NCBI RefSeq assembly: GCF_025148125.1
Contig: NZ_CP102267.1
Location: forward strand, 4,553,501 to 4,617,500
Direction of reading: 5' to 3'
Length of the DNA: 64,000 bases
Source of the DNA: Blautia wexlerae DSM 19850
GTDB taxonomy: Bacteria > Bacillota > Clostridia > Lachnospirales > Lachnospiraceae
Of this stretch, positions 15,374 through 34,138 are shown piece by piece. Every line of letters begins with the position of its first letter. Positions within the stretch are counted from its first letter, which is position 1. The position numbers and the translations under genes were made by a program. Below the pieces are notes generated by a model. It did not search any database. It was not told the DNA's origin and saw only the letters and a program-made list of their open reading frames with translations.

Positions 15374-15988
15374 TTATTCTTCAGTTTTCAGATTCCACAT
15401 GACCTGTATTGCACCATCCATCACATGGAATTTTTTAAAATAGGCTTCCTCCTTTGGGATCCACATATTCTGAAATTGTTTTGCCTTTTCCGGGCCATTG
15501 CGCTTTTTTATATTTTCCATCTGATCTTTGGGAGAAATATTTAAAAATACACGAAGTTGATAAGGGTTCTTAAAATATGGATGCATACTGTAAGAACCCT
15601 CTATAATATTGAGTTTTTTATAAGGAACAGGATATCCCTCCAGCAGATTCCATTTCTGGCAGCTGAACGGCTGATAAAAAACAGTCTGCTTCTGAAAGAT
15701 TGGTCTTAATACCGTTTCCTCAAACCGCTCATAATCCACATTTCCTCCTGTTTCTTTCAGACGCTGTGGCGTACGCTGTTCCATGCGCAGAAAAAAGTCA
15801 TCCATTCTGAACAGATTACAGTTGAATACCTGCTCCAGATATTCTCCCAATGTAGTTTTCCCACTTCCACACCTGCCATCAATTGCAACGATCAGAGGCT
15901 CATCCAGTCCTTCCTTCTCTTTCTGCAATTTTCTGATTGCCTGAACTACCGGTTCAAATCTTTCTTTGCAGCATGCCTTTAATTCCAT
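15374..15988 (-). CDS. Uridine kinase-like P-loop kinase
   Basis: The 204-residue P-loop protein has Walker A AIDGRCGSGKTTLGEYLEQ near residue 40, FRMDDFFLR (Asp of substrate site) and NIIEGSYSMHP. This matches small uridine/AAA kinases that phosphorylate nucleosides or other small metabolites. It overlaps the upstream ECF S-component gene by 10 bp, so it may phosphorylate the vitamin or precursor that the S-component imports. Confidence 0.75.
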   Translation of the reverse strand: MELKACCKERFEPVVQAIRKLQKEKEGLDEPLIVAIDGRCGSGKTTLGEYLEQVFNCNLFRMDDFFLRMEQRTPQRLKETGGNVDYERFEETVLRPIFQKQTVFYQPFSCQKWNLLEGYPVPYKKLNIIEGSYSMHPYFKNPYQLRVFLNISPKDQMENIKKRNGPEKAKQFQNMWIPKEEAYFKKFHVMDGAIQVMWNLKTEE

Positions 15989-16518
15989 TCTACTGTTCCT
16001 TCCATATTATACAAACGTTCTACCAGGGACGGGATCAGAACAAGCTGAATCAGAATTCCCGGCAACGCATTTATAAATCCTCCCATCAGAAACAGTTCCC
16101 AGGTAAAGATCCCTCCTGTAAATGCATATACTGCTGCCGAAACCAGTCCCCATACGATCCGTCCACACAGCATTGCTGCTATGAGTGAAATATACAGGGA
16201 TTTTATATCTTTTTTCATTTTTTCTGATAAAATTCCTGCCACCAGCCCATAAGTGGCAAGTTCAAACGCCATACAGAAGGCATTCGGAAAAATTGCCGGC
16301 ATTCCGAACACCACTCCTCTTAAAAGAGGTGTAATAATCCCAATAAGTAAACCATATGGCCATCCGCAGATATATCCACATAATAACACCGGTATGTGCA
16401 TCGGGCAAAGCATTTTCCCTACTGCCGGTATCTGCATTGTGATAAATGGAAGGATCAGTCCGATCGCAAGAAACAATGCTGCTAAAATTCTTTTTCTTAA
16501 AGCTGTATTTTCTTTCAT
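15979..16518 (-). CDS. ECF transporter S component
   Basis: The ~179-residue membrane protein has about five helices with PCPMHIPVLLCGYICGWPYG style motifs: CPMHIPVLLCGYICG, PLLRGVVFGMP and NAFCMAFELATYG. It is an energy-coupling-factor substrate-binding subunit that works with EcfA/EcfT encoded elsewhere. Substrate unknown. Start at 16518 (GAGAG upstream) fits the family length. No riboswitch is visible in 16519-16650. Confidence 0.8.
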   Translation of the reverse strand: MKENTALRKRILAALFLAIGLILPFITMQIPAVGKMLCPMHIPVLLCGYICGWPYGLLIGIITPLLRGVVFGMPAIFPNAFCMAFELATYGLVAGILSEKMKKDIKSLYISLIAAMLCGRIVWGLVSAAVYAFTGGIFTWELFLMGGFINALPGILIQLVLIPSLVERLYNMEGTVEWN

Positions 16519-16650
16519 ATCCCAAATTCTCTCTTTCAGTATAAAAATGCCAGTGATATAACAAAACACCCCTGTCAGAAACACAAAACAGCTCTGGACA
16601 GGGATGCTTATATTATAAATACTATACCCTACTAATATAATGATGCTACA

Positions 16651-18138
16651 TCAACAGCAACATGGATGACGATGTCCATATTCATCCATACAATCCTGTG
16701 CAGGATCTTTCATGCAAAGATGTACAGCTGCTTTTTTGAATGTCATTGGCAGTGCCAGAATATTTGGTTCCTGACCAACATATTTCTTCTTGGCATCTTC
16801 CAGTGCTTCTTCAAATGTAGCTCTTGTTTTTAAGCCCATTCCTCTTGCATAGCCCGGTTCCTCAGCGCCTACGATATAGATTGCACTGGTATTCATTTCT
16901 GCAATATGTCCGCAGGACATCATAGAGAAGCCATGGAATGGATGGAATGCATTCGTATAACGATATTTACGGATATATTCTTCATTCGTAGCAAAATACT
17001 CACCAAGGCGGTTCATATCCGGCAGCGTATTCATATGATCATGCTGGAACAGATCATATAATTCTCTTAAATATGGCCAACGCTCATCATGGAAATAACC
17101 ATTGCATGTAGATGCGCAGATAATTACACAGTTATCACTCATAACTCTCTTGAATCGAAGTACCTGTGCACTTAAAGCCTGCATCATCATGATAGGATTG
17201 GTTCCCATTCCATCACCATAGTGGAATTTCTGCGGCATACCAAATACAAGTACATCATATTTCTTCTCTGCCCAGTGTACATAGGTTCTCTTGTCAGCAA
17301 GCTTCCAGCTGATCGGCATCATTTCCTTTGCATAGCCTGAGTAAATTGCGATCTGTCTGGACTGTGTATCCAGTACAGCATCACAGCAGAAGAAAGGATG
17401 TCCCATTTTTTCTTCCATATGCATACTGATCTCATCAAATTTATTACGCATCAGGCTTCCACCATTAACCGGTGTAAAATCATCTCTGTGCATAACAGAC
17501 GGTACATGATGGCTTGCAATACATTTCCAGTTTGTAATACCAGTTGCACTGTGTTTGTATCCGCCTGAATATCCACCATAAGGATTTCCCTGTACATGAC
17601 CGATAAGAATCGGAATATCACACTCAAAGACATATTTATTCATGTACACCGGATCGCCTCTGTGAGTGGTTCCAAGATCTACCATATGTTCCTGATCTTC
17701 GCTGTCATGACTGATGATCTGTCCTGTATGCCAAAATTCATTAAATAATTCTTCTCCAAAGATAGCCTTTGCATCCGCTTCTGTGCTTCTTGGATGAAGT
17801 CCGTTAGAAATAATGAAAAGAATATCTTTCTTCTCAACACCGGCAGCATATAATTCTTTCAAAATATATTTAATGCTTAACTTTCTGTGGCTGGTAGCCT
17901 GCTCGCCACCTTTTACACGATCCGGAACAACAATAGTAACTGTTTTTCCGGGTCCTGCCAGTTCTGTTAAAGTAGGCATACCGATCGGATGAGCCAGACT
18001 TTCCAGATAAGCAGCCTCTAGCTGATCTTCCGGAATATGATCAGGATCCTTTACAGTTTCTCCCGGAATAAAAATATCAGTATTATCCGGCAATTCAGCA
18101 GACATGGTTCCCTGTCCATACTCAAAATCAAATTTCAT
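16651..18138 (-). CDS. larA: LarA-family nickel-pincer racemase/epimerase
   Basis: The 495-residue protein carries LarA motifs: ISNGLHPRST (His), GHVQGNPYGGYSGGYKHSA (His and the Lys that carries the pincer cofactor) and ASHHVPSVMHR. The family interconverts 2-hydroxyacid stereoisomers. It is longer than lactate LarA (~424), and the C-terminus ends HRHPCCC, a possible metal-handling tail. Being last in the nagB-nagA-aldolase-TSUP-TPI unit suggests a hydroxyacid made from that pathway rather than lactate itself. LarB and LarE are not in the window; a LarC1 gene is at 23122. Confidence 0.8.
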   Translation of the reverse strand: MKFDFEYGQGTMSAELPDNTDIFIPGETVKDPDHIPEDQLEAAYLESLAHPIGMPTLTELAGPGKTVTIVVPDRVKGGEQATSHRKLSIKYILKELYAAGVEKKDILFIISNGLHPRSTEADAKAIFGEELFNEFWHTGQIISHDSEDQEHMVDLGTTHRGDPVYMNKYVFECDIPILIGHVQGNPYGGYSGGYKHSATGITNWKCIASHHVPSVMHRDDFTPVNGGSLMRNKFDEISMHMEEKMGHPFFCCDAVLDTQSRQIAIYSGYAKEMMPISWKLADKRTYVHWAEKKYDVLVFGMPQKFHYGDGMGTNPIMMMQALSAQVLRFKRVMSDNCVIICASTCNGYFHDERWPYLRELYDLFQHDHMNTLPDMNRLGEYFATNEEYIRKYRYTNAFHPFHGFSMMSCGHIAEMNTSAIYIVGAEEPGYARGMGLKTRATFEEALEDAKKKYVGQEPNILALPMTFKKAAVHLCMKDPAQDCMDEYGHRHPCCC

Positions 18139-18172
18139 AGTAAATCTCCCTTCATTATACGTACTTAATTTA

Positions 18173-19021
18173 TTATCTGTTATTTACCTTACCCATATAA
18201 AGACGAATAATCTCAAGATATTCCTCCGGATAATATCCAATTTCACCCTGAAATCTTGTCAATGCGATCAATCCACCATCTATCTCATCAATGGACGCAA
18301 GCATTTCTGCATTGTCCTGCTTCAGACCACCACCATATACGATGTCCATACCATTTGTCTTTTCTTTTACAAATTTTGCGATCTTAGTAATATATTCTTT
18401 TCCGGCCGGTGTTTTTCCCGGTCCGATAGACCAGATCGGTTCATATGCGATCACAACCTTTGAAGTGTCTACATCCTTAAGTCCGATCTCAAGCTGTTTT
18501 CCAAGAACTTCCTGCCACTGCTCCTGTTCCTCACTTTTTTCACCGATACAGTAAAGAACTTTCATTCCTCTTGCAATCGCACATTTAATTTCCTGATTCA
18601 GAAGGCGGTTTACAGCACCTGTATCTGTGACACCTGCCTCTGCAAGGATTCCTGCCTTATCATTTCTCTCTTCACAGTGTCCGATTATCGTAGTCTCACA
18701 TCCGGCCGCTGCCATAGCTGAAGCCGGTCTATTTGCAGTAAATGCGCCAAAATTTCCGCCAACTGCAGTATCTGCTCTGAATACACTCTGACAGCCGATC
18801 TGAACAGGACTTCCCTCTGTTTTTGCTGCTGCTGCATTCAGAAGATGTACTTCCGGGAAATACATACCAAATTCCACTTCAGAAGGATCATATGTCTTTA
18901 ATTCTTCCTGTGTATTCTTTACAATACAGGATGCCCAGTCAGCAACCGGAGCCAGACGGTTTACACCTCCGAATTCCACCGGAACATCAAATCTTTTTAA
19001 ATTCAGATAAATGTGTTTCAT
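18173..19021 (-). CDS. Triose-phosphate isomerase family protein, divergent anion site
   Basis: The 282-residue TIM barrel keeps the catalytic set: NLK (Lys9), GHCEER (His115) and AYEPIWSIGPGKTP (Glu194 and the mobile loop). The two phosphate-gripping segments differ: canonical GGS is GGG (230-232) and canonical VGGAS is ALTRF (253-257). So proton transfer chemistry is kept while the anion pocket changed. It sits between the TSUP exporter and larA, 35 bp from larA, and probably isomerises a three- or four-carbon ketose/aldose produced by the upstream aldolase. Confidence 0.8.
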   Translation of the reverse strand: MKHIYLNLKRFDVPVEFGGVNRLAPVADWASCIVKNTQEELKTYDPSEVEFGMYFPEVHLLNAAAAKTEGSPVQIGCQSVFRADTAVGGNFGAFTANRPASAMAAAGCETTIIGHCEERNDKAGILAEAGVTDTGAVNRLLNQEIKCAIARGMKVLYCIGEKSEEQEQWQEVLGKQLEIGLKDVDTSKVVIAYEPIWSIGPGKTPAGKEYITKIAKFVKEKTNGMDIVYGGGLKQDNAEMLASIDEIDGGLIALTRFQGEIGYYPEEYLEIIRLYMGKVNNR

Positions 19022-19107: not shown

Positions 19108-19824
19108 TCAGGATAAAAGGAGATAGCTTCCGGCACACATCATAAAAATATATACCACTTTTTTGATCCCTGTCATAGTAAGCCGGCGAAACAAAAACAT
19201 TCCAACTGCTGTTCCAACTGCCGTTCCTGCCAGTGCCGCTCCAACCAAAGGCAGCATAGCTCCTGATACATGACCCTGAAACACATGGATCAGGAAAACA
19301 CTGACCGTATTAATTGTAAAAAACATTTGAAGTGTAGCATTATATTTTTCTTTATCATCTGTCACAGACAAAAAATACGCTACCATCGGTGGACCTCCAA
19401 TATTAAAAAGTCCTCCGCAAAAACCACTGACTGCACCGGCTGCCAATCCGGAAACCAAACCTGCCTTTAAATGAACTTTACTGCTGAAGAAAATAAAATA
19501 AACTGCCAGAACAAGAAGAACTGTTCCCATGATCTTTGACAAAACAGCTTCATCCAGAGCCATCAGCGTATTCACCCCCAGAAGGCTGGTTACCGTAGCC
19601 ATGATCACAGGTGGCAAAAGAAGTTTCCAGTCAATAAATTTCCACAACTTTACTGCAATGTAAATTACCATAAAAAAAGCTGCAATCGCTTCCAGTATGG
19701 AAGCTGTGTAAAAAGGCATAAACATTGGCCAGATGGCCATACAGATAATTGCATAGCCAAATCCACTGCTGCTCTGCACACAACTTCCTGCCAAAGCTAC
19801 CAGTGCTGTTAATATATAGATCAA
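19108..19824 (-). CDS. TSUP (TauE/SafE) family anion exporter
   Basis: The 238-residue membrane protein has about eight helices with family motifs GSCVQSSSGFGYAI and AGAVSGFCGGLFNIGGPPM. TSUP proteins move sulfite, sulfoacetate, other organosulfonates and some organic acids. Translation starts at TTG 19824, overlapping the aldolase stop (TTGA), so it is tightly coupled to the aldolase. In known sulfo-sugar pathways of Gram-positives a TSUP protein exports the C3 sulfonate left by aldol cleavage. Confidence 0.85.
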   Translation of the reverse strand: MIYILTALVALAGSCVQSSSGFGYAIICMAIWPMFMPFYTASILEAIAAFFMVIYIAVKLWKFIDWKLLLPPVIMATVTSLLGVNTLMALDEAVLSKIMGTVLLVLAVYFIFFSSKVHLKAGLVSGLAAGAVSGFCGGLFNIGGPPMVAYFLSVTDDKEKYNATLQMFFTINTVSVFLIHVFQGHVSGAMLPLVGAALAGTAVGTAVGMFLFRRLTMTGIKKVVYIFMMCAGSYLLLS

Positions 19825-20975
19825 AGCCCTTTACGATAGCGTTCTGCCATTTCATCCAGACCAGTCATCTCCACCAGCGGTGCTTTTCCATAAGAACCAA
19901 ATTCTACGATCAGAGTACCGATTGCTTCTTTTACGCCCTTTTCAACAACAGCCATAAGAGCAGCAACATCTTCATCCGGAATAACGCCATACATAACTGT
20001 ATCCATAATAGGAGTCAGGAATGCACGTGGATCAAACTGTTCTTTCTTTGCCTCCAGAAGGCGATATACCTCACCAATCGACTGGCTTTCTCTTTTTTCA
20101 GGATGAGCTGCAAAAAATTCTTTCATATTTCTTGTAACAGCCAGACGGATATCTGTATCTACATTGATCTTTCCAATACCACATGGAATTGCCGCTTTCA
20201 GTTCATCAATAGAAATTCCATAGGCATTCTGGATATTTCCACCCAGAGCATTGATCTCATCTACAATATATCTTGGCACTGTTGAAGATCCATGAGATAC
20301 CAGTACACCAAAAATACCCTCATGCAGCATGCACTCTTTGATGGCAATGGCAATTTCTTTTCTTAATTTAACATTTTTTCCTTTAGAAGCGCCATGCATG
20401 GTTCCATAAGAAATAGCCAATGCATCAACACCTGTTTTCTTAAAGAATTCAATAGCCTTTAAAGGATTGGTATAAGTAGATGTAGCAGAAAATACATGAT
20501 CCTCCACGCCGGCTAAAACTCCCAGTTCACCCTCTACAGAAACACCTCTTTCATGCGCATATTTGACAACTTCACGAGTCAGTTCCACGTTTTCATCAAA
20601 CGGAAGGCTGGAGCCATCAATCATAACAGATGTATAACCGCCTGCAATTGCTGCTTTACAGGAATCAAAATTCTTACCATGATCCAGATGAAGAACAACA
20701 GGAATCGGAGAATTTTCTGCATATTTCTTTACAGCATCTGCGATATTCTTTGCACCGATTTTTTTATCTTCCAGAGTAGCATTCTGAAAATCTGTTCTTC
20801 CACCCATAAATCCATTTGCAAGATCTGCTCCCTGAAGGATTGCTGCAGAACGGAACATTTCATGAACTTCAATTGCTGCTTTTGCCTGTGCTACTGCATT
20901 TACATTAAACGCCCCCTGTGCAAAGTGATATTTATCTACAGTTTCCAGTAATGGTCTTAATGGTATTAATGGCAT
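19821..20975 (-). CDS. Class II fructose-bisphosphate aldolase family protein
   Basis: The 384-residue zinc aldolase has HLDHGKNFDS (Asp/His at the metal), EGELGVLAGVEDH, AISYGTMHGASKG (zinc His), LVSHGSSTV (zinc His) and KINVDTDIRLAVTRNM (phosphate loop). It cleaves a ketose (bis)phosphate to DHAP plus an aldehyde. It is longer than GatY/KbaY enzymes (about 285). It follows nagA and is coupled by overlap to the TSUP exporter, so its aldehyde product or derivative may be what is exported. Confidence 0.85.
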   Translation of the reverse strand: MPLIPLRPLLETVDKYHFAQGAFNVNAVAQAKAAIEVHEMFRSAAILQGADLANGFMGGRTDFQNATLEDKKIGAKNIADAVKKYAENSPIPVVLHLDHGKNFDSCKAAIAGGYTSVMIDGSSLPFDENVELTREVVKYAHERGVSVEGELGVLAGVEDHVFSATSTYTNPLKAIEFFKKTGVDALAISYGTMHGASKGKNVKLRKEIAIAIKECMLHEGIFGVLVSHGSSTVPRYIVDEINALGGNIQNAYGISIDELKAAIPCGIGKINVDTDIRLAVTRNMKEFFAAHPEKRESQSIGEVYRLLEAKKEQFDPRAFLTPIMDTVMYGVIPDEDVAALMAVVEKGVKEAIGTLIVEFGSYGKAPLVEMTGLDEMAERYRKGL

Positions 20976-20988: not shown

Positions 20989-22137
20989 TTATTGTTCTAT
21001 TTTTCTACCTTTTACAAATGTATCAATGACAGAATATTCTTCATCCAGAATAACCACATCCGCATCTTTTCCGGTATCAAGACTTCCAATCCTGTCATAT
21101 ACATCCAGCATCTTAGCCGGATTGCATGTAAGAAGCGGCAGTATCTCTTCAAGAGATCTTCCTGTAAATTTGATCAGATTCTTAAGTGCACATCCTGTTG
21201 TAAGTGTACTTCCCGCTCTGGAATCTCCGTATTTCAGTTTTGCGTCTCCGTCTTTTACGATAACCGGATTAACGCCCAGCATATATTCTCCATCCGGAAG
21301 TCCGGCAGCCATGATAGAATCAGTTATGGCGATTACTTTGTCCAGACCTTTCATTTTCAGAAGAAAACGAACGGTTCCCGGATGCAGATGCCGTCCGTCA
21401 CAGATAGCTTCACAATAGATGTCAGATTCCAGAACAGCCCCCATGATAGCTGGAAAATGCTGATGAAGAAGTTTCATCGCATTAAATGTATGTGTCGCTG
21501 CTACAGCCCCCTCATTAATACATTTCCATGAAGTCTCATAATCTGCGCCTGAATGACCGATAGCAACCTTCATACCAAGATCCGTCATTCCCTTAATTGC
21601 TTCCGGCACTCCTTTTACTTCCGGCGAAACAGTAATATAGCGAATATTACCGTCTGCTGCCTTCTGATATTCTTTCAGAAGCTCCAGATCCGGAGAAATC
21701 AGCAAATGCTCTGGCATTGCTCCTTTATATTCCGGCGCAAGGAATGGTCCCTCAAGATGAATCCCCAGAAGATCTGCACAGTTTTCATGTCCGTTCTTTT
21801 GTGCCTCCTGATGCTTCACAGCTTCATTTATTGTTTTCAACGTCTGTTCTTTCGTATCTGTCAATATGGATGAAAGCCATGACGTAGTTCCCTGAGTTGC
21901 AAAAAAATGTCCGATTTTTTCAAATCCCTGCTGATCAGCCGCATTTACATCTACCCCTGCACCGCCATGAGTATGTACATCTATAAAACCGGGTACTACA
22001 TATTTCCCTTTTGCATCATAGACTTCATCTGCGTTTTCATCTTCAGCAGAACTGATCTTTCCCTCTTTCAGAACAAGATCTTCCTCTGAAAAAGTTCCAT
22101 TCTTATATACTTTTCCATTTATGATCCGAATGCTCAT
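20989..22137 (-). CDS. nagA: N-acetylglucosamine-6-phosphate deacetylase family
   Basis: The 382-residue amidohydrolase has FIDVHTHGGAGVDVN, LGIHLEGPFLAPEYKGA (metal Glu), GHSGADYE, THTFNAMKLLHQ and AITDSIMAAGLPDGEY (catalytic Asp). All residues needed for deacetylation of GlcNAc-6-P or GalNAc-6-P are present. It is 36 bp downstream of nagB and 13 bp upstream of the aldolase, in one operon. Confidence 0.92.
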   Translation of the reverse strand: MSIRIINGKVYKNGTFSEEDLVLKEGKISSAEDENADEVYDAKGKYVVPGFIDVHTHGGAGVDVNAADQQGFEKIGHFFATQGTTSWLSSILTDTKEQTLKTINEAVKHQEAQKNGHENCADLLGIHLEGPFLAPEYKGAMPEHLLISPDLELLKEYQKAADGNIRYITVSPEVKGVPEAIKGMTDLGMKVAIGHSGADYETSWKCINEGAVAATHTFNAMKLLHQHFPAIMGAVLESDIYCEAICDGRHLHPGTVRFLLKMKGLDKVIAITDSIMAAGLPDGEYMLGVNPVIVKDGDAKLKYGDSRAGSTLTTGCALKNLIKFTGRSLEEILPLLTCNPAKMLDVYDRIGSLDTGKDADVVILDEEYSVIDTFVKGRKIEQ

Positions 22138-22173: not shown

Positions 22174-22995
22174 TCAGTCAAGTGCTGCAACAAATTCTGT
22201 TATCTTCAGGTTAATATCCGGATGTGGAGTAAGAAGAGATACCGGAAAATCAGAAGTTGCTTCCCCATATGCAGCTCTTCGTACTACTGCACGATGCCAG
22301 TTTCTGAAACAGCCAAGGCGGATCTTTCCTGCATGAGAGATCTCATTGATTCCGATGGTAACACAATAATGAGGCATATCTTCCAGTGCTCCGTTGAAAT
22401 CACCGATTGCGTTTGCTGTTCTTGTCTCTTTGGTAATTTCAAGAACACGTGTTTTCTGAGCAAGAAATTCTTCATTTGTAAGGGATGGATCTGCTTCATT
22501 AAATGCTACATGACCATTAATTCCAATTCCACCGAAACAGATATCAACGCCCCCCAGTTTTTCAATCAGTTCAGAAATATATTCCGGATGATTCGGATCC
22601 GGAAATACTCTCTGATCTTCCGGCATTACAAGTTCCAGGCGAACTTTATCATAAACTGTACGCTGCATGAAGCCTCTGAAGCTTAACGGATGATCTTTTG
22701 AGATCCATTGTTTCTCATCATCCAGATATTCATCCATGTTAATAAACCATACATTTTTCAGGCTGATATTCTGCTCATTAACCATATCCACAAAATATGG
22801 ATACTGTCCTACAGGACCTACAGGACAGATAAATACTGTTTTTTCTCCCTTTTCGTTATGTTTTTTGATCTCATCCACCATTTCAACTGCCATAGAATGA
22901 AATACTTCTGCATTGTCTTCCATAACAATTACCGGAAGCTTCGGTCCATTACCCACTAACTCTTCCTTTGTATAGCTATAATAACTATGTCCCAT
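22174..22995 (-). CDS. nagB: Glucosamine-6-phosphate deaminase/isomerase family (NagB-like)
   Basis: The 273-residue protein matches NagB: NMDEYLDD (Asp88), SKDHPLSFRGFM, GGIGINGHVAFNEADPS (His162, Glu167). Position 160 is Asn where NagB has the catalytic-site Asp (GNDGH), and the C-terminal half is unusual (IRLGCFRNWHRAVVRRA). So it may be a paralogue acting on a different amino-sugar phosphate. First gene of a six-gene unit; promoter TTGATT-17-TATAAT at 23051-23079. Confidence 0.85.
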   Translation of the reverse strand: MGHSYYSYTKEELVGNGPKLPVIVMEDNAEVFHSMAVEMVDEIKKHNEKGEKTVFICPVGPVGQYPYFVDMVNEQNISLKNVWFINMDEYLDDEKQWISKDHPLSFRGFMQRTVYDKVRLELVMPEDQRVFPDPNHPEYISELIEKLGGVDICFGGIGINGHVAFNEADPSLTNEEFLAQKTRVLEITKETRTANAIGDFNGALEDMPHYCVTIGINEISHAGKIRLGCFRNWHRAVVRRAAYGEATSDFPVSLLTPHPDINLKITEFVAALD

Positions 22996-23050: not shown

Positions 23051-23122
23051 ATTATAGTAGATAAAATTTTTTTAATCAACGAATTCAATGCAAATTTGCC
23101 TGGAATCTGCGCAAACGTTTTC
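23051..23122 (-). promoter_or_regulatory. nagB operon promoter with upstream AAACGTTT operator
   Basis: The minus strand has -35 TTGATT (23074-23079), a 17-bp spacer and -10 TATAAT (23051-23056), 56 bp before nagB. The operator GAAAACGTTTGCGC (23109-23122, centre 23116.5) lies about 72 bp upstream of the expected start point and touches the larC stop codon. That location is more like an activator site than a blocking repressor site. Confidence 0.7.
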
Positions 23123-23985: not shown

Positions 23986-24028
23986 AAATTTAAGCACCTC
24001 CACTTTAGTTCTATGTACTCTATCAAAA

Positions 24029-24100
24029 ATTATATAAGTTTTTATTTTTTTATCAATGACTTTGAGTTGATTTTGCATTCAAAGTACGCAAACGTTTTCC
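24029..24100 (-). promoter_or_regulatory. larC promoter with upstream AAACGTTT operator
   Basis: The minus strand has -35 TTGATA (24051-24056), a 16-bp spacer and -10 TATAAT (24029-24034). The operator GGAAAACGTTTGCGT (24086-24100) is centred about 71 bp upstream of the predicted start point, nearly the same distance as at the nagB promoter. Confidence 0.65.
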
Positions 24101-24204: not shown

Positions 24205-24299
24205 CACATAGTTTGATATCAAGTTAGGAGCAAAATACCTTTTGACCCTAACATCATAGTTTTAGAAAATAGTTGTATAAAAGATTGCGGGGAGTTATT

Positions 24300-25358: not shown

Positions 25359-25360
25359 TA

Positions 25361-25473: not shown

Positions 25474-26535
25474 TTATTTCAATACAATAGCCTGTGTCAG
25501 GTGTCTCGGTGAATCTGCATCCAGATTCTTGCTGTCTGCAATATAATATCCAAGAAGCTGTCCGATAAATCCGATGATTGCACTGTACTGCATATCATTC
25601 CATTCTTTATCCATGGAATATACGTAATCAGCGATCTGATCAAAAGTATCTCCCAGTTCTCCGCCAAGAACTGCAACTATTGCACCATAACTCTTCATCT
25701 GTTCCATAAGTGCTTTGTCACCATCTCTGCAGGCTTTATTGCTTAAGCACACGATCAGTGTATTTTCGTCTACAAGACTCATTGGCCCATGACGGTATTC
25801 CAGATCATAATATCCTTCAGAATTGCTGAGTCCCATTTCTTTCATCTTATTCATACATTCATTGGCAACACCATAATAAATACCCTGTCCAAGAATAATG
25901 TAGAGATTCAGGTTTTTATGCTCATTCATGATTTTTGCAGACAGTTCATCCATTTCTTTCAGAACCTTTTCAGAATATGGAGCATAATCTTTCATTGCAG
26001 CAATTTCATCTTTCTTACCGCCTACATACATAGCCATGATAACAGCCATATATAACATACTTGTAAAAGAACGTGTCATGATAACACTGTCTTCAGCTGT
26101 ATCCGGTGAAAGAATGTAATAGTCATTATATTTTTCACTGTCTTTGTCACAGGTAATAGCCAGTGTAGTAACCTGAGGATAAGTACGAACTTTATCAATA
26201 GCCATTCTTACTTCTGTAGTATAGCTTTTTCTAGTAATCGGAAGGATCAGCACATTTCTTCCTTCTTTTACATAAGTTTCCGGAAAATAATACAGCTCAG
26301 AGCATGGAACTCCCTTTGACGGGATTCCTGTATAAGTGGAAAATGCTGCTGCTGAAGCCTGTGCCAGATAAAGAGAAGTTCCACATCCTGTAAAAATCAG
26401 CTCATCATATTTTTTCTCACCGAAGAATACCTTGTCCAGAGTTTTGAAAATATCCTCCAGAGTATCATTGACAGCCTGAAAAGAAGCCGGCTGCTGGTAC
26501 ATTTCTTTATAGGTCAGTTCACTGTTTTTTTTCAT
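25474..26535 (-). CDS. SIS-domain sugar-phosphate isomerase/deaminase (AgaS/GlmS-like)
   Basis: The 353-residue protein has two SIS folds: ELIFTGCGTSLYLAQASAAA near residue 45 and YIILGQGIYYGVANECMNK near 205, with YYDLEYRHGPMSLVDENTL, the Glu-Tyr-Arg-His-Gly-Pro signature of sugar-phosphate isomerases. Members include AgaS (galactosamine-6-P deaminase), FrlB (fructosamine-6-P deglycase) and the GlmS isomerase half. Next to a GatY-like aldolase it fits an AgaS role. It is 59 bp downstream of that aldolase. Confidence 0.85.
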   Translation of the reverse strand: MKKNSELTYKEMYQQPASFQAVNDTLEDIFKTLDKVFFGEKKYDELIFTGCGTSLYLAQASAAAFSTYTGIPSKGVPCSELYYFPETYVKEGRNVLILPITRKSYTTEVRMAIDKVRTYPQVTTLAITCDKDSEKYNDYYILSPDTAEDSVIMTRSFTSMLYMAVIMAMYVGGKKDEIAAMKDYAPYSEKVLKEMDELSAKIMNEHKNLNLYIILGQGIYYGVANECMNKMKEMGLSNSEGYYDLEYRHGPMSLVDENTLIVCLSNKACRDGDKALMEQMKSYGAIVAVLGGELGDTFDQIADYVYSMDKEWNDMQYSAIIGFIGQLLGYYIADSKNLDADSPRHLTQAIVLK

Positions 26536-26593: not shown

Positions 26594-27445
26594 TCAGGCC
26601 TTTCCTTCTGAACCTGCAAGACGGATGATCTTTTTGATGTCTTCTGTCAGAGCATCATTTGCAAGCTGTGACAGTTTCCATGAATGTCCCTGATGATTTG
26701 TCTTCAATGCTTCTTCATAATGTTCTACATATTTATAACGGATTTCTGTACCAAAGTTGATCTTCGCAACACCAAGCTTAATAGCTTCTTTGATGATATC
26801 TTCTCTCATACCTGTACATCCATGAAGAACAAATGGAATATCTGTAAATTTCCTTACTTCTTCCAGAACTTCCAGTTTGATATCCGGTTCACCCTTATAA
26901 TATCCATGAGCATTTCCGATTCCAATAGCCAGGGAATCCGGCTGACACAAATCCAGAAACTGACGGACCTGCTCCGGATTTGCTACATTTTTATTCTCCA
27001 TCTGAGCACCGGCTTCATCTAATCTTAAAAGTTCTCCGATCTCTGCTTCTACAGGAACATCGAAACATTTTGCCACCTTGATCACTTCATTTGTGAGTCT
27101 GGCATTTTCTTCAATCGGTTTTGTAGATCCATCGATCATCAGGGACGTAAATCCATTCTTTAATGATTTCATGCAGATATCAAAGCTGTCACCATGGTCC
27201 AGATGGATCGCGATTGGTACACTTACTTTATTTGCACACCATTTACATACTTCTACAAACCAGTCATCTCCGGAATATGCTCCTGTAGCCACATAATGAG
27301 CCAGGATCGCAGGTGAATGCATTTCTTCCGCTGCTCTGCAGATCGCCCAGATAATATCATAGTTTCCACCCTGTGTGTTCATTGCAGGCACTGCATAATG
27401 TTCTCTTCGTGCCTTTTCGAGCATTTCCTTACTTGTAACTAACAT
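26594..27445 (-). CDS. Class II aldolase, GatY/KbaY-like (tagatose-bisphosphate type)
   Basis: The 283-residue zinc aldolase has IHLDHGDSFDICMK (metal site), EAEIGELLRL, GIGNAHGYYKGEPD (zinc His) and FVLHGCTGM (zinc His). The phosphate loop reads KINFGTEIRYKYVEH, with NFGTE instead of the common NxDTD. The length is usual for tagatose/fructose-bisphosphate aldolases. The substrate is inferred from the SIS neighbour as a ketohexose bisphosphate. Confidence 0.85.
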   Translation of the reverse strand: MLVTSKEMLEKARREHYAVPAMNTQGGNYDIIWAICRAAEEMHSPAILAHYVATGAYSGDDWFVEVCKWCANKVSVPIAIHLDHGDSFDICMKSLKNGFTSLMIDGSTKPIEENARLTNEVIKVAKCFDVPVEAEIGELLRLDEAGAQMENKNVANPEQVRQFLDLCQPDSLAIGIGNAHGYYKGEPDIKLEVLEEVRKFTDIPFVLHGCTGMREDIIKEAIKLGVAKINFGTEIRYKYVEHYEEALKTNHQGHSWKLSQLANDALTEDIKKIIRLAGSEGKA

Positions 27446-28618: not shown

Positions 28619-28620
28619 TA

Positions 28621-29631
28621 TTATTCTGCGCAAGCTTCTTCCATTACATCGAAAAGAACATAATTATCAACTGGTGTTTCTTCACAGTCACCGCTCTCAA
28701 CAAATGATTTCTGCTGCAGTTCATAATAGCCTTTGACATCATCCATATGATCCCTGATGAATTCACTTGTTGTCCAGTCTGCTACTTCTACCTGATCAAG
28801 AAGGGAATTTTTTTCAAGTTTAATCTTGTCAGCAATCCAGCCGCACACTTCATCATCATGGCTGTGGTCTGCACGATAGTCAAATCCTTTATAAAGAGCT
28901 CTTGCAAATCTTACAAGTACGTCATGATTTTCTTCAGCATATTTCGGCATTGCAATCCAACTTGCAAGAGATACAGTTTGATCAATAAATGTTTTGTTAT
29001 CTGTCAGCTGTACACCATCATCTCCAAGTTCCTCAAGAACTTTCAAAGAGTTCGGTACCCATGTTGCACACGCATCAACACTGCCAGAAAGCATTGCTGT
29101 TACAATGTTTGTTGCATCCATATCCATTGCTGTGATATCATCCATCGTCATACCTCCTTTTGCAAGGGTTTTATTCAGGATATCTTCACTGGATGTTCCT
29201 GAAGAATAAGCAATTGTTTTTCCTTTTAATCCTTCAATTGTATCTGTTCCTTTTTCCTTACTTCCGATTACAGCATCACCATTAGATACATGTGCAAGCG
29301 CAAAGATATCAGCTTTACCGTTGATGCAAAGTTTGTGGGCTCCCTGTCCGATGTATCCAACATCAATAGATCCAGATTCCATAGCCTGAATGATTGTCGG
29401 TCCATCGGAGAACTCTGTAAGCTGTACATCAATATTCTCATCATCAAAATATCCAAGTTCAATTGCAGAGATAAGACCATTTAAACTTGCATAATCAGGC
29501 ATATAAGCTACATGTACAGTTACTTTTTCCGGTTCTTCCTCTGTCGCTGCACTTACTCCCATTGCTCCGCCACAAATGACCATAGATGCTGTTACTGCCA
29601 TTGCTACTAACTTTTTCCATGTTTTTCTCAT
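28621..29631 (-). CDS. SsuA/NMT1-like ABC substrate-binding protein
   Basis: The ~336-residue protein has an N-terminal signal sequence (KKLVAMAVTASMVICGGAMG, possible cut after VSA) and motifs of the nitrate/sulfonate/taurine-binding family: VAYMPDYASLNGLISAIELG, PTIIQAMESGSIDVGYIGQG and TIAYSSGTSSEDI. Family members bind alkanesulfonates, taurine, nitrate or thiamine precursors. Start 29631 has AGGAAGCAGGACA before ATG. Last gene of the operon with ssuB- and ssuC-like genes. Confidence 0.85.
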   Translation of the reverse strand: MRKTWKKLVAMAVTASMVICGGAMGVSAATEEEPEKVTVHVAYMPDYASLNGLISAIELGYFDDENIDVQLTEFSDGPTIIQAMESGSIDVGYIGQGAHKLCINGKADIFALAHVSNGDAVIGSKEKGTDTIEGLKGKTIAYSSGTSSEDILNKTLAKGGMTMDDITAMDMDATNIVTAMLSGSVDACATWVPNSLKVLEELGDDGVQLTDNKTFIDQTVSLASWIAMPKYAEENHDVLVRFARALYKGFDYRADHSHDDEVCGWIADKIKLEKNSLLDQVEVADWTTSEFIRDHMDDVKGYYELQQKSFVESGDCEETPVDNYVLFDVMEEACAE

Positions 29632-29724
29632 TGTCCTGCTTCCTTTCTTTTCCACTTTTTAGGGTAGTATTTAATAGTTTCTCTTTATTCTGAACCGTTC
29701 CATACAAGCAACGACCAAAATTCA

Positions 29725-30516
29725 TTATTTTCTTACTTCCAGATATTCCTGATATACCTGACTCCAGATATGATTTTTCAATTCCATAAACCTTGGGCTC
29801 ATCTTTGTTTCCTGATCACGTGGATATGGAATATCAATATTTACAATATCTTTGATACGTCCGGGTCTGGCACTCATAACGATAACTCTCTGCGCCAGAA
29901 TAATTGCCTCATCTACATCATGTGTGATAAAAAAACATGTTTTTCTCTCACTCTCCCATGTTTTCAGAAGTTCTGTCTGCAGCTGAGTTCTTGTCTGCGC
30001 ATCTAAAGCTCCGAAAGGCTCATCCATAAGAAGTACTTCAGGTTTTACAGCATAGGCTCTTGCAATTGCAACACGCTGTTTCATACCACCGGAGAGTTCC
30101 TTTGGATAATGATTTACGAAATCTTCAAGCTGTACCATCTTGATATATTTCATTGCAATTTCTTTCGCTTCAGCATCGCTCTTGCCCTGCAATTTCAATC
30201 CAAACATAACATTTTTCAGAACCGTCAGCCATGGGAACAATGCATACTGCTGGAATACAACACCTCTTTCAGTACCTGTTCCTTCAATTTTCTTGCCATC
30301 AATATATACCGCTCCACTGGTTGGAGTATCCAGCCCTGCGATAATATTCAACAATGTAGATTTACCGCACCCGGAAGGTCCTACCACACAGATGAATTCA
30401 TTTTCTTTAATATCAAGATTTACTCCGTTTAATGCAGTCATCTCGCCCTTACGAGTCTGATAAATTTTTTTAACGTTATCAATCTTAAGTTTTGTCACTC
30501 TCTCTTCTCCTGCCAT
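29725..30516 (-). CDS. SsuB/TauB-like ABC ATPase
   Basis: The 263-residue ATPase has Walker A VVGPSGCGKSTLLNII, signature LSGGMKQRVAIARA and Walker B EVLLMDEPFGALD, with the H-loop FFITHDVDEAI. It belongs to the nitrate/sulfonate/taurine subfamily. Its start overlaps the permease stop by 22 bp. Confidence 0.9.
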   Translation of the reverse strand: MAGEERVTKLKIDNVKKIYQTRKGEMTALNGVNLDIKENEFICVVGPSGCGKSTLLNIIAGLDTPTSGAVYIDGKKIEGTGTERGVVFQQYALFPWLTVLKNVMFGLKLQGKSDAEAKEIAMKYIKMVQLEDFVNHYPKELSGGMKQRVAIARAYAVKPEVLLMDEPFGALDAQTRTQLQTELLKTWESERKTCFFITHDVDEAIILAQRVIVMSARPGRIKDIVNIDIPYPRDQETKMSPRFMELKNHIWSQVYQEYLEVRK

Positions 30517-31277
30517 CCTGTTAACCTTCCTTCTAAGAATTTAATGATTTTTTCCATTACCAGTCCAATAATACCAATGATGATGATATACATCAGCATA
30601 CCTGCTGTTTCAAAACTGTTTGCCAGAGAGCGGATTCTCATTCCCAGACCAGCAGTTGCTCCTGTTGTTTCTGCTGCGATCAATGTTGTCAGTGCAACAG
30701 AAATACCAAGTCGAACAGCTGTCAAAATAAACGGAGTTGTTGCCGGAAAAATAACTTTCACAAAAATATCTCTGTCTTTTGCACCAAGGACTCTGGCTGC
30801 TTTTACCAGAGTATTATCAATATTTCTTACACCCTGATAAATTGTAACTGTCATGATTAGGAATGTTGCGATCCAAATAACAATAATCTGAGGTTTTCTA
30901 CCTACACCTGCTGTAATAACTACCAACGGTACATATGCCAGAGGCGGAATGTTACGAATAAACTGAATCCATGGTTCCAGAACCCCTCTGACCGGGAGAT
31001 ACCATGCCATAAGAAACGCAATCGGTACTGCAGTTATAAAACCAAGTGCAAATCCGGCCAGAATTGATATCATTGAACTACAGAAATCCTGTCCAAGTGC
31101 CCCATTATCAATCATTCGTTTGGCTGCCTCAAGAATAGCCGGAATAAATGGGAAGCTTCGTGCTGTTTTGGGATTAATGGATAATACATACCATAACAGG
31201 ATTGCTACCGCAAGGGAAATCAGTACCCATGCCCATCCCGGGATAGACTGCATTACTCCTTTTTTCTTTTTTTCCAT
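30495..31277 (-). CDS. SsuC/TauC-like ABC permease
   Basis: The 260-residue permease has about six helices and the family loop VKAARVLGAKDRDIFVKVIF. The sequence IRNIPPLAYVPLVVITAGVG is typical of sulfonate/taurine/nitrate permeases. It lies between the PFK-like gene (54 bp upstream) and the ATPase gene. Confidence 0.9.
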   Translation of the reverse strand: MEKKKKGVMQSIPGWAWVLISLAVAILLWYVLSINPKTARSFPFIPAILEAAKRMIDNGALGQDFCSSMISILAGFALGFITAVPIAFLMAWYLPVRGVLEPWIQFIRNIPPLAYVPLVVITAGVGRKPQIIVIWIATFLIMTVTIYQGVRNIDNTLVKAARVLGAKDRDIFVKVIFPATTPFILTAVRLGISVALTTLIAAETTGATAGLGMRIRSLANSFETAGMLMYIIIIGIIGLVMEKIIKFLEGRLTGWQEKRE

Positions 31278-31331: not shown

Positions 31332-32498
31332 TTAAAGATAATCCTTGAAATTCAGGAATTCCGGAAGTGGATCTCCGATCAGCGGGCGACACCAGTCAAC
31401 AAATTCCTGTGTTACATCGTTACCTCTTTCATTTATAAAATTGTCAGGCATCTTCCGTTCATAAAGCATAACTTCTTTGATAGGAACAAGCTTTGTTTTC
31501 ATCTGATACACCGTTCCCGGGACCCGTTCAAAACCTACCATCACTCCGCTGTTTCCTTCAACAGCACTCCTCAGTGCAACTGTGCCGGCCTGTCTTGCTT
31601 CTTCTCTGTCCACCGGTGACTGAAGTGCTACAGAAGTTCTTCCGCAAAGTCCGGGTTTTTCGCTTCTTGCTTTTACGCCAAGTTTCTTAACTACCAGATT
31701 CGCAAGATGTGAACTTACATCTCCATAATAAACAGCTCTTTCTGATTTAAAGATTGGAGGAACAATAGATTCTCCATTTGCATCATGAAGTCCCTCACTT
31801 ACCAGAACTACTACTCCACCCTGCTTTTTCTGAAGTCTGGATACATCCTCAAGAAACTCATCTTCATTAAAGTTTCGTTCCGGCAGATAGATCAGGTGAG
31901 GAGCATCTCCCTGTTTCCTTCTTGCAAGTGCGGAAGCTGCTGTGATCCATCCTGCATTTCTTCCCATGGCTTCCATAATACATACATGAATGGGAAGAGA
32001 TTTTACATCTTCACCAACTTCCTGGGTAGAAGCTGCAATAAATCTTGCCGCACTTCCATATCCTGGTGAGTGATCTGTCATTGCGATATCATTGTCAATC
32101 GTTTTTGGAATTCCAACAACTTTGATATCCTGATCCTTACAGACCTCATAAATATGTCCGCATGCATCCATAGTTCCGTTTCCGCCATTCAGAAGAACAT
32201 ATTTAATATCATGTTTTTTAAAGATATCCACCATTTTTTCATAATCTTTTTCATATAGAGGATATCTGGAAGATCCAATTGCCGAAGCAGGTGTATGCAA
32301 AAGAAGTTTCAATTTTTCATCATCAAACGAAGTCAAATCTATGAAAGTTTCTGAAAAAATTGCTCCGGTTCCACCAATCGCTCCGTAAACTTTTCCAACC
32401 TCCGGATTTCGTTTTGCTTCTTCGATCACACCGTAAAGGGATGCATTGATGACTGCTGTAGGCCCACCTCCATGTACCACTAATACATTTTGTGACAT
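31332..32498 (-). CDS. Phosphofructokinase-family sugar-phosphate kinase, atypical
   Basis: The 388-residue protein (from start 32498, GAAAGGAAAGCGGA upstream) is PfkA-like: NGGNGTMDACG (105-109), IPKTIDNDIA (131-137) and IMEAMGRNAGWI. PKTIDND with Lys is the mark of pyrophosphate-dependent enzymes. GGNGT is unusual, since ATP and PPi enzymes have GGDGS or GGDDS and the Asp helps bind magnesium. The catalytic TIDND is intact. As the first gene of the importer operon it probably phosphorylates a ketose-6-phosphate or related compound for one of the class II aldolases. Confidence 0.85.
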   Translation of the reverse strand: MSQNVLVVHGGGPTAVINASLYGVIEEAKRNPEVGKVYGAIGGTGAIFSETFIDLTSFDDEKLKLLLHTPASAIGSSRYPLYEKDYEKMVDIFKKHDIKYVLLNGGNGTMDACGHIYEVCKDQDIKVVGIPKTIDNDIAMTDHSPGYGSAARFIAASTQEVGEDVKSLPIHVCIMEAMGRNAGWITAASALARRKQGDAPHLIYLPERNFNEDEFLEDVSRLQKKQGGVVVLVSEGLHDANGESIVPPIFKSERAVYYGDVSSHLANLVVKKLGVKARSEKPGLCGRTSVALQSPVDREEARQAGTVALRSAVEGNSGVMVGFERVPGTVYQMKTKLVPIKEVMLYERKMPDNFINERGNDVTQEFVDWCRPLIGDPLPEFLNFKDYL

Positions 32499-32629
32499 AT
32501 TCCGCTTTCCTTTCCACTGTTTATTGTGCATCTTACAATAAACTTTTTATTTTTCTTGAATATGTTTTATTCAATTTCACTTTGTACTCTTATCTTAACA
32601 TATTTTTGCAAAAACAAAAGCACAATTAA

Positions 32630-32883: not shown

Positions 32884-32899
32884 TTTACCATATAGTGAT

Positions 32900-33469
32900 T
32901 TACGCTTTTTTTACAGCGTTCAAAACCACATTTGCCACACCACACAAAACCATTGCCAATATAGGATTTATTTTAAATTTACGAAGCAGCACCAATGCGA
33001 CCACAAAAAATATGATCATTTCCACACATACATTCTGGCGTATAAGATTTACAGTACCATCAATGAAAAATGCAGAAATTAAAATCGTTACCCCTGCTTT
33101 GGCGATCATCGATACAACTGCCGGTCTGAGAGATGCCAGTGTTCCCTGAAGTAAAGACATATTCCGATACTTCATATAAACATATGCCAGCAAGGTTACA
33201 ATAATACAGGAGGGAAGAATACATCCCAATGTAGCAATTATTGCACCTAAGATTCCCGCTATCTGCATCCCTACAAAAGTAGCAGAGTTTACTGCAATCG
33301 GTCCCGGCGTCATTTCAGCGATCGTTATCAGATTCGTAAATTCGCTCATTGAAAGCCAGCTGTGCAGATTCACCACCTGTTCCTGTATCAGCGGCATTGC
33401 GGCATATCCTCCTCCAAAACTCAATGCCCCGACCTGGATGAAACTTAAAAAAAGCTGAATATAGATCAT
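32900..33469 (-). CDS. chrA: Half-size ChrA-family anion transporter, second subunit
   Basis: The 189-residue membrane protein has the CHR motifs GALSFGGGYAAMPLIQEQVV and EMTPGPIAVNSATFVG. Short-chain ChrA proteins work as pairs in opposite topology and exchange chromate/sulfate or unknown oxyanions. It overlaps its partner by 4 bp. Confidence 0.9.
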   Translation of the reverse strand: MIYIQLFLSFIQVGALSFGGGYAAMPLIQEQVVNLHSWLSMSEFTNLITIAEMTPGPIAVNSATFVGMQIAGILGAIIATLGCILPSCIIVTLLAYVYMKYRNMSLLQGTLASLRPAVVSMIAKAGVTILISAFFIDGTVNLIRQNVCVEMIIFFVVALVLLRKFKINPILAMVLCGVANVVLNAVKKA

Positions 33470-34041
33470 TTTTCCCTGCCTCCTTTTACTATTGTCCGTA
33501 CCATTCCAAATACAGCTACCAAAAGTATTATATAGATAATGTTAACATTCAGGAAATAGCTGAGACAAAAACTGATGATCATTATCACCACATTCACCCA
33601 GTCCTTTGACTTTACAACATTTTTCCCCATATCATACACTACAGACATAATAACTGCCCCAACTCCCGCAGTCATTCCTTTTAATAATGCCGCAATATAA
33701 TAATTGGAACAAAACGCATCATAAAATACAGAAATAACAGATAAGATCACCATCGGAGGAATGATCGCTCCAATGACAGATACCAGCATTCCCGGTATGC
33801 CGGCAAGCTTATACCCCACAATAATCGCTCCGTTTACTGCGATCGCTCCAGGTGAAGACTGGGCGATTGCAACCAGATCCAGCATTTCATCTTCTTCGAT
33901 CCAGTGATAATGATCCACAAATTTTTCTTTCAGCAAAGTAACAATTACATAACCGCCGCCGAAAGTAAATGTGCTGAGATACAGACATGCAAAAAATAAT
34001 TTTCGCAGTACATATCCTTTACTTTTTGTTTTTTCTTCCAT
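33466..34041 (-). CDS. chrA: Half-size ChrA-family anion transporter, first subunit
   Basis: The 191-residue protein has STFTFGGGYVIVTLLKEKFV and QSSPGAIAVNGAIIVGYK. It pairs with the downstream gene. The perfect AGCAAACGTTTGCT palindrome at 34125-34138 lies in its upstream region, which places it in the same regulon as the amino-sugar genes and supports transport of a pathway-linked anion. Confidence 0.9.
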   Translation of the reverse strand: MEEKTKSKGYVLRKLFFACLYLSTFTFGGGYVIVTLLKEKFVDHYHWIEEDEMLDLVAIAQSSPGAIAVNGAIIVGYKLAGIPGMLVSVIGAIIPPMVILSVISVFYDAFCSNYYIAALLKGMTAGVGAVIMSVVYDMGKNVVKSKDWVNVVIMIISFCLSYFLNVNIIYIILLVAVFGMVRTIVKGGREK

Positions 34042-34124
34042 TTTATTTCCCCCATTTTTTAATACATTCTATAGATTCTATATTTTATCTTATCATGTAC
34101 TAAAAAAAATTCACTTCATTTATC

Positions 34125-34138
34125 AGCAAACGTTTGCT
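34125..34138. promoter_or_regulatory. Perfect LacI-type operator AGCAAACGTTTGCT
   Basis: An exact 14-bp palindrome between the divergent chrA and LacI genes. A possible chrA -10 (TAGAAT, 34066-34071) would put the operator about 72 bp upstream of the start point, as at nagB and larC; the -35 there is poor, so this is tentative. Confidence 0.65.

Follow-up and report, generated by a model that had tools for sequence, protein, structure and literature searches.

A gene set of gut Clostridia that probably degrades an amino sugar with a sulfur group in the place of phosphate

Introduction

The genome of Blautia wexlerae DSM 19850 contains, within a stretch of 64,000 nucleotides (contig NZ_CP102267.1, positions 4,553,501 to 4,617,500 of the forward strand; called the window below, and part of a single-contig 4.69-Mb genome, G000), homologues of the amino-sugar enzymes NagA and NagB, a phosphofructokinase (PFK), a class II aldolase, a relative of triosephosphate isomerase (TPI) and the nickel enzyme LarA, together with an importer of the SsuABC type and an exporter of the TSUP family. 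The question raised by this locus is which substrate such a gene set serves. An earlier note, made from the sequence, had proposed that a sulfonated or sulfated amino sugar is imported and split here, that dihydroxyacetone phosphate (DHAP) is kept, and that the anionic three-carbon part is exported. The present study found that these genes stay together as a conserved unit (importer, amino-sugar enzymes, kinase, aldolase, TPI-like protein and LarA, often joined by a TSUP exporter), as that proposal needs, and that the bacterium probably eats an amino sugar bearing a sulfur group at the place of the usual phosphate; the sulfonate itself is favoured but not proven. More specifically, and with moderate confidence, the unit is read as a second Embden-Meyerhof-Parnas (EMP)-like glycolysis for a hexosamine whose C6 group is a sulfonate or, at the least, some other anion of sulfur and not phosphate.

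Results and Discussion

Conservation of the gene set

Read along the minus strand, the region has the order pfk-ssuC-ssuB-ssuA; lacI-aldolase2-SIS; larC; nagB-nagA-ald1-tsup-tpiL-larA-ecfS-kinase, and features below are on this strand unless stated otherwise. The last unit is compact, with a 4-base overlap between ald1 and tsup and gaps of 13 to 86 bases elsewhere from nagB to ecfS. It encodes a NagB-like deaminase/isomerase with a rebuilt phosphate site (22174..22995), a NagA-like N-acetyl-6-X-glucosamine deacetylase (20989..22137; TIGR00221, 294 bits, cut-off 226), the class II aldolase ald1 (19821..20975; PF01116, best PDB match 3gak, a Giardia-type fructose-bisphosphate aldolase (FBA)), a TSUP (TauE/SafE) exporter (19108..19824; PF01925, 102 bits, cut-off 32.6), a TPI-like protein named TPI-L here (tpiL, 18173..19021; PF00121) and a single-histidine LarA (16651..18138). 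The importer consists of an SsuA-like substrate-binding protein (28621..29655; PF09084), an SsuB-type ATPase (29725..30516; PF00005) and an SsuC-type permease (30495..31277; PF00528), the last kept beside nagB and nagA elsewhere, and is preceded on this strand by a PfkA-family kinase (31332..32531; PRK14072, 428 bits, cut-off 273). Open reading frames and family profiles in the window located every gene that the earlier note had listed, at the positions it had named. Its NagB and SsuA-type labels need a correction: the NagB-like protein scores far below its family cut-off (TIGR00502, 104 against 237 bits) and the SsuA-like protein below its subfamily cut-off (TIGR01728, 120.5 against 163.5 bits); the SsuA-like protein is above the Pfam NMT1 cut-off.

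Relatives of TPI-L were scanned with one query in one genome per species, yielding 221, of which the best 80 (74-100% identical) were kept with their surroundings. Only 40 of these 80 loci reach 20 kb and loci L001-L022 are too short to count; genes were called by identity thresholds that we set, and the contingency tests are exploratory. Across the 80 loci, larA was found in 76, ald1 in 69, pfk in 64, nagB in 53, nagA in 51, ssuA in 49, ssuB in 46, ssuC in 45, any TSUP gene in 38 and a gene similar to phosphoglucose isomerase (PGI) in 21, while DUF4838 (13), GH3 (7), larC (7), ChrA (2) and the SIS isomerase with aldolase2 (2) were rarer. The four loci without larA end about 250 bases or less past tpiL. 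When only the 40 loci of at least 20 kb are counted, larA is present in all 40, ald1 in 37, nagB in 35, nagA and ssuA in 34 each, ssuB and pfk in 32 each, ssuC in 31, any TSUP gene in 27, DUF4838 in 11 and the PGI-like gene in nine. Among the long loci ssuB never occurs apart from nagB: nagB accompanies it in all 32 cases, and ssuB is missing from each of the five loci that lack nagB (Fisher p 8.5e-5); associations of nagB with DUF4838 (p 0.30) and of GH3 with the PGI-like gene (p 0.55) were not significant. Gene order also recurs, as nagB-nagA-ald1-ssuC-ssuB-ssuA-pfk-tpiL-larA in L039, L040, L051 and L070, and, with a histidine kinase (HK) and response regulator (RR), as ssuC-ssuB-ssuA-HK-RR-nagB-nagA-ald1-tpiL-larA-pfk in L068 and L089. 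With the window's own genome counted, TPI-L was detected in 18 of 250 genomes of the family (E 1e-40) and the LarA profile matched in 8 of 398 genomes of the phylum (E 1e-60). The gene set is more than a chance neighbourhood: Clostridia repeatedly have the same importer together with NagA/NagB, PFK, the aldolase, the TPI-like protein and LarA. This neighbourhood check bears out the expectation that the importer stays with the sugar genes in other genomes (ssuB in 32 of the 40 long loci). The same expectation for the exporters holds for TSUP (27 of the 40) but fails for ChrA, which was seen in two of the 80 loci (L037 and L045).

Rebuilt phosphate sites

Each protein family was aligned to its E. 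coli counterpart and to the canonical paralogue of the window genome; residue roles follow those in E. coli NagA, NagB, PGI, TPI, PfkA and YihU and in the Giardia aldolase. In the 52 NagB-like proteins aligned, the equivalents of D72, H143 and E148 are kept throughout and the D141 position holds Asn (49/52) or Thr (3/52). The phosphate site differs: the TGGTP loop reads VG-P with two residues gone, the R172 position is Gly in 51 of 52, and the K208 equivalent is lost, its position lying within FRxWHR, a motif new in the family. The 51 NagA-like proteins all keep the metal and catalytic residues E131, H195, H216 and D273 and all have His at the R227 position, and in 49 of them a new Arg (R249) precedes a conserved His. 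In 21 of 21 PGI-like proteins E355, H386 and K514 are kept and SKTFTT has become AKNFET. Among 60 aligned PFKs, the position of E. coli R162 is His in at least 95%, compared with Lys in the two PRK14072-like paralogues of the window genome and Gln in four distant PFKs.

TPI-L shows the same pattern. Its catalytic K9, H115 and E194 are kept in 80 of 80 proteins (the Lys placed by its N-x-K motif). Loops 7 and 8 of TPI hold the phosphate, and in all 80 proteins loop 7 has changed from YGGS to YGGG (G232 for Ser, in the run YGGGLK) and loop 8 from VGGAS to IALTR (A253-L254 for Gly-Gly, then Thr and R256); five distant members with 39-43% identity likewise have YGGGLK, and after ALT either Arg or Lys. 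With these loops replaced and a normal TPI elsewhere in the genome, TPI-L is unlikely to be a DHAP isomerase, the role for which the earlier note had wanted it. TPI-L defines a TPI-like subfamily that databases would label triosephosphate isomerase although the phosphate site is gone.

Outside this region, the window genome has canonical copies of NagB, NagA, PGI, TPI and FBA and four other PFKs, the canonical nagB-nagA pair lying at 249743-251683 of G000. Because conserved changes at phosphate contacts coincide with intact catalytic residues and with canonical paralogues, the cluster is best read, from these alignments, as a glycolysis that runs in parallel on a substrate lacking the 6-phosphate. 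The replaced contacts and the canonical pair likewise set these enzymes apart from ordinary N-acetylglucosamine (GlcNAc) enzymes, on which point the earlier note was right, and led us to reject a plain GlcNAc-6-phosphate route. Ordinary GlcNAc or N-acetylgalactosamine (GalNAc) catabolism, with duplicated enzymes beside an unrelated importer, could account for a NagA score above the family cut-off; given the same two observations and the co-conservation of importer and sugar genes, we regard it as very improbable.

A second alternative is that position 6 is neutral, either unsubstituted or 6-deoxy, so that the loss of basic contacts (NagB R172, NagA R227 and PFK R162) reflects nothing more than the missing phosphate; the three-carbon product would then be glyceraldehyde or lactaldehyde, and LarA would handle lactate. 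However, new conserved basic residues stand at the same places (FRxWHR in NagB, R249 in NagA and R256 in TPI-L), the close LarA relative described below showed no lactate racemase activity, and export by TSUP would have no explanation, which leaves this alternative a slim chance, despite the fact that the wider importer family also binds non-sulfonates (binders of the hydroxymethylpyrimidine (HMP) type are among its listed members).

Import and export

The AlphaFold model of the SsuA-like protein (predicted local distance difference test (pLDDT) 86.6) was compared with known structures by Foldseek, and its seven best chains are the sulfonate-binding proteins TauA or SsuA (three proteins, 19-20% identity), the eighth being an HMP-type binder. 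The TSUP type found in the window occurs in four of the 80 loci and a second type in 28, with further TSUP proteins in the distant clusters L117 and L119; the TSUP proteins of the clusters fall into types that do not cluster together. As there are only two TSUP genes in the 4.69 Mb of the window genome (a background taken from this one genome), their presence in this neighbourhood by chance is very unlikely. A TauE protein and SqwE of sulfoglycolysis clusters are reported to be probable exporters of C2 or C3 sulfonates or sulfite (PMC11489063, PMC12890257).

A GHKL sensor kinase and a response regulator lie between the importer and nagA/nagB or pfk in many loci (L026, L031, L033, L067 and L068), and are perhaps the regulator in place of LacI. 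The region itself has three LacI regulators, of which the one between larC and the SIS gene (24273..25358, plus strand; PF00356) has a homologue in eight of the 80 loci.

A probable amino sugar, and the sulfate-ester alternative

The presence of NagA homologues in 51 and NagB homologues in 53 of the 80 loci, together with a glycosidase, points to an amino sugar as the substrate. The latter is the DUF4838 protein, which in nine of its 13 loci lies directly between ssuA and nagB; its model (pLDDT 87.5) matches GH20, GH67, GH84, GH89 and GH115 structures (best 2epo, E 5e-13, template modelling (TM) score about 0.5) and predicts a glycosidase of a hexosaminidase-like type. In L027, L028, L029, L090 and L091, PGI-like and GH3 genes occur with no nagA or nagB in the stretch covered. 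This is suggestive of clusters that serve a non-amino 6-X-hexose, a split that is not significant in the long loci.

The same pathway could also serve a 6-O-sulfated substrate, such as GlcNAc-6-sulfate from mucin or keratan sulfate, which would yield DHAP and glyceraldehyde 3-sulfate and need no sulfatase. Gut bacteria are the source of many of the 80 loci, NagA, NagB and the hexosaminidase-like enzyme fit such a substrate, and sulfoglycosidases active on 6-sulfo-GlcNAc glycosides are known from bacteria (PMC11659886). A search of that paper found no link to Clostridia or transport. Searches for sulfatases and dehydrogenases were made by tblastn with E. coli AslA, YdeN, AldA, YihQ, YihU, YihS, YihT and YihV, from which distant members may escape. 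By this search the window has no relative of the sulfatases AslA and YdeN, as a pathway without a sulfatase would have it, and the sulfatase-like pieces in a few loci (enumerated below) keep the sulfate-ester alternative alive. On the other side, a sulfate ester is nearly isosteric with phosphate and would not be expected to need a wholesale replacement of phosphate loops, and both the TauA/SsuA-like binding protein and the SftI-type isomerase of four distant clusters favour a C-S sulfonate. Overall we consider a sulfate ester rather unlikely, though the most serious of the alternatives.

The three-carbon part: LarA and TPI-L

The LarA of the window is 100% identical to PDB 9q3j over residues 2-495, which we take to be LarA_Bw of Blautia wexlerae (PMC12611868), a nickel-pincer enzyme with one catalytic histidine whose substrate and pathway that account leaves open. 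LarA enzymes act on alpha-hydroxy acids, and LarA_Sp, 72% identical to the window protein, showed no lactate racemase activity in a published test (PMC12611868). At least 98% of 73 close members, and seven distant ones as well, share H115, N185, K195, H211, H306, Y307 and H402. Asn (N185) stands at the place of the second catalytic histidine in the window protein and all seven distant members, unlike the two-histidine lactate racemase, and the first histidine and the lysine that holds the nickel-pincer nucleotide are kept, as in the single-histidine subfamily. A role in carbohydrate metabolism has been proposed, and it has been noted that the neighbours resemble a glycolysis and that some members lie close to possible sugar transporters of the ABC type (PMC12611868); the excerpts of that account of LarA_Bw and LarA_Sp make no mention of a sulfonate-type importer, a TSUP exporter or changes at phosphate sites. 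In the clusters studied here LarA usually adjoins TPI-L or a dehydrogenase, which places it after aldol cleavage, where it would probably act on the C3 sulfonate. Where TPI-L was not seen, the neighbour of LarA is a dehydrogenase, so TPI-L seems to take the place of an enzyme acting on the C3 aldehyde.

Several genes concern the cofactor of LarA. LarC1, for nickel-pincer cofactor synthesis (23122..24078; TIGR00299, 199 bits, cut-off 90), covers no more than positions 1-234 of the 375 in PF01969, and the 126 bases between it and nagB leave no room there for the rest, which is presumably LarC2. The window genome also has a strong match to TIGR00268, which we take to be LarE. The larA unit, drawn by the earlier note from nagB to larA, continues into a possible operon extension formed by the S component of an energy-coupling factor (ECF) transporter (ecfS, 15979..16584; PF12822) and a P-loop kinase (15374..15988; best NCBIfam matches PRK06547, 41.5 bits, and PRK07667, 34.5 bits, both below cut-off). 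The same pair stands directly before pfk in L050, and relatives of the kinase occur in L026 and L033; the two might provide a precursor of the nicotinate type for the nickel-pincer cofactor.

Distant clusters

In four more distant genomes (G508, G555, G637 and G484), LarA, PFK and a class II aldolase occur with a FucI-type isomerase, which belongs to the same-strand run of genes, pfk included, that lies next to LarA. The only strong NCBIfam match of this isomerase is the sulfoquinovose isomerase SftI (319, 330, 306 and 316 bits, respectively, near full length, E 4e-91 or better), compared with 19-23 bits for fucose isomerase where reported. Taken with the PF00365 kinase and the PF01116 aldolase, it makes these clusters similar in enzyme content to sulfo-EMP2 (PMC9594981). 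In G637 and G390 the neighbour of LarA is a beta-hydroxyacid dehydrogenase, and TPI-L was not seen in the stretches covered. The G637 enzyme (locus L121) is 35% identical to the E. coli sulfolactaldehyde reductase YihU, its best PDB matches being hydroxymethylglutarate dehydrogenase (181 bits), tartronate semialdehyde reductase (156 bits) and YihU (152 bits), so that family rank alone does not decide. Together, the TSUP genes, the TauA/SsuA-like binding protein, the SftI-type isomerase and the YihU-like dehydrogenase argue for sulfur, and for a sulfonate over a sulfate ester.

The score for tartronate semialdehyde reductase, and the activity of LarA enzymes on alpha-hydroxy acids, would also suit a 6-carboxylate. 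An N-acetylhexosaminuronate would be the substrate, its C3 product tartronate semialdehyde being converted to hydroxypyruvate by TPI-L, with LarA acting on a C3 hydroxyacid. The dehydrogenases of L121 and L122, however, read APVLGRP where 3cky has APVSGG, and YihU has Gly-Arg there; the SGG motif of 3cky binds the carboxylate. In addition, neither the TSUP exporters nor the TauA/SsuA-like importer would have an obvious role, and no glycerate kinase was recognised among the annotated recurrent neighbours, for which no dedicated search was made. We judge a carboxylated substrate to be unlikely.

The SftI-linked clusters (L119, L120, L121 and L123 with L150, L151, L153 and L154) share further genes: a uroporphyrinogen-decarboxylase-family protein (4/4, 36% in G484), a levoglucosan-dehydrogenase-like oxidoreductase (4/4), a phosphomannose isomerase (PMI)-like protein (3/4) and an NhaC-type antiporter (3/4). 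L117 (G602) combines PFK, ald1, a PMI-like protein, TPI-L, LarA, TSUP, SsuCBA, a second binding protein and a two-component system; it has no NagA/NagB, and by its gene content would pair the gut-type lower set with an isomerase of a third kind. L118 (G282) has TPI-L and LarA among genes similar, by eye, to tripartite tricarboxylate transporters (TTT), aldolases of the dihydrodipicolinate synthase (DHDPS) family, a short-chain dehydrogenase/reductase (SDR), a lactonase and an arylsulfotransferase-like protein; a gene similar to the latter occurs in L148 (G282), and the flank in L147 reads by eye as a phosphonate C-P lyase operon. The context of L118 looks Entner-Doudoroff-like.

Three candidates for sulfo-sugar genes were rejected. 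A 23% FucI-like gene beside larA in L024 has a partial 59-bit SftI match and is followed by a xylulokinase-like gene, so that it is read as part of a separate pentose cluster. A UxaA-like gene near L118, considered as a sulfolactate lyase, best matches galactarate dehydratase, below cut-off. Gfo/Idh genes of the distant clusters, considered as NAD-dependent sulfoquinovosidases, best match levoglucosan dehydrogenase and other oxidoreductases, 8qc2 (the structure we take to represent those sulfoquinovosidases) being matched at E 4e-7.

The proposed pathway

In the proposed pathway, the SsuABC-type importer would take up N-acetyl-6-deoxy-6-sulfo-glucosamine or a small glycoside of it, the NagA-like enzyme would remove acetate and the NagB-like enzyme ammonia to give 6-sulfofructose, the PfkA-type kinase would form 6-sulfofructose 1-phosphate, and the class II aldolase would split this into DHAP, which would enter glycolysis, and 3-sulfolactaldehyde. 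TPI-L would isomerise the C3 aldehyde via an enediol, the nickel-pincer LarA would carry out hydride chemistry on the TPI-L product (epimerisation, isomerisation or C-S cleavage), and TSUP would export a C3 sulfonate or sulfite. We infer this order of steps, the identity of the anion and the products of TPI-L and LarA from the gene content, co-occurrence and residue changes described above; in particular, TPI-L and LarA would handle sulfolactaldehyde instead of a dehydrogenase. Methylglyoxal formation occurs in TPI, and by analogy TPI-L might turn the sulfolactaldehyde enediol into methylglyoxal and sulfite, LarA might convert methylglyoxal to D-lactate and TSUP export the sulfite. With this redox-neutral desulfonation a dehydrogenase would be superfluous and a single histidine would suffice, but we think it a long shot.

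Several observations weigh against a C6 sulfonate and the pathway drawn for it. At the enzyme level, ald1 keeps an Arg aligned to Giardia R259 and gives no clear sign of a changed 6-site, the PGI-like protein reaches 424 bits where the cut-off for canonical PGI is 443, and the SftI matches of the four distant isomerases fall below the curated cut-off of 700. No NagA or NagB was seen in the SftI-linked clusters, so that only TPI-L and LarA (41-48% identity for these two) and PFK connect them to the gut clusters. No TSUP gene was detected in 13 of the 40 long loci. The tblastn searches found no relative of E. coli YihU, YihS, YihT, YihV or AldA in the window and 80 loci, no relative of SftI (with the L151 protein as query) in the window or in 79 of the 80, and for the sulfoquinovosidase YihQ only a 24% piece in L071. 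Short hits to AslA or YdeN in L062, L078 and L087 and a 36% hit to the maturase AslB in L083 make four of 80 loci with sulfatase-related pieces, with none in the window. An aldehyde dehydrogenase relative (L119:13679-15124, 35% identical to AldA) is found within a few kb of LarA and near TSUP, and another stands at the edge of L123 (33% to AldA); both are possible sulfolactaldehyde dehydrogenases, and in L119 the usual oxidation of the C3 aldehyde might take place. Finally, no mention of sulfonated glucosamine, under various names, was found in the literature searched.

The findings nevertheless suggest that a sulfur-bearing amino sugar, which we did not find described as a nutrient, is a fermentation substrate of common gut Clostridia (among them Blautia, Roseburia, Flavonifractor and Gemmiger); if so, the sulfonate, sulfite or sulfate released could feed sulfide producers. 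No paper in the literature searched deals with both lactate racemase and sulfoquinovose. In addition, the pathway gives testable substrates to a structurally solved nickel enzyme of unassigned reaction.

Neighbouring genes

Two further groups of genes had been counted in the pathway, and conservation of the neighbourhood does not support their place in it. The SIS-domain isomerase (25474..26535) and the GatY-like class II aldolase, aldolase2 (26594..27445), are lineage-specific neighbours, being found in two of the 80 loci, both from close Blautia relatives (L023 and L024), and are probably not core. The two half-size ChrA transporters (32900..34041; PF02417 twice) are occasional neighbours.

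Comparison with known systems

Catabolism by NagA/NagB and the Aga pathway proceeds by a deacetylase, a deaminase/isomerase, a kinase and an aldolase, and the window set has the same order. It differs in that there is no gene of a phosphotransferase system (PTS) among the genes identified, the phosphate contacts are replaced, and the aldolase and PFK belong to other subfamilies. TPI-L shares with triosephosphate isomerase the Lys, His and Glu of catalysis and loop 6, whereas the phosphate loops 7 and 8 are replaced (YGGGLK and IALTRF). There is also a likeness to sulfo-EMP2, a pathway of sulfoquinovose (SqvD/SftI, SqiK, SqiA, then YihU or SlaB), in which SqiK and SqiA are the same PF00365 kinase and PF01116 aldolase that the window holds in one cluster (PMC9594981). 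The window set works like sulfo-EMP2 but departs from it in two of its defining features, the FucI-type SqvD/SftI isomerase and the sulfolactaldehyde reductase or dehydrogenase, neither of which was found in the window: NagA/NagB or a PGI-like protein stand in the gut clusters where sulfo-EMP2 has SqvD, TPI-L and LarA stand where it has the reductase or dehydrogenase, and import is of the SsuABC type.

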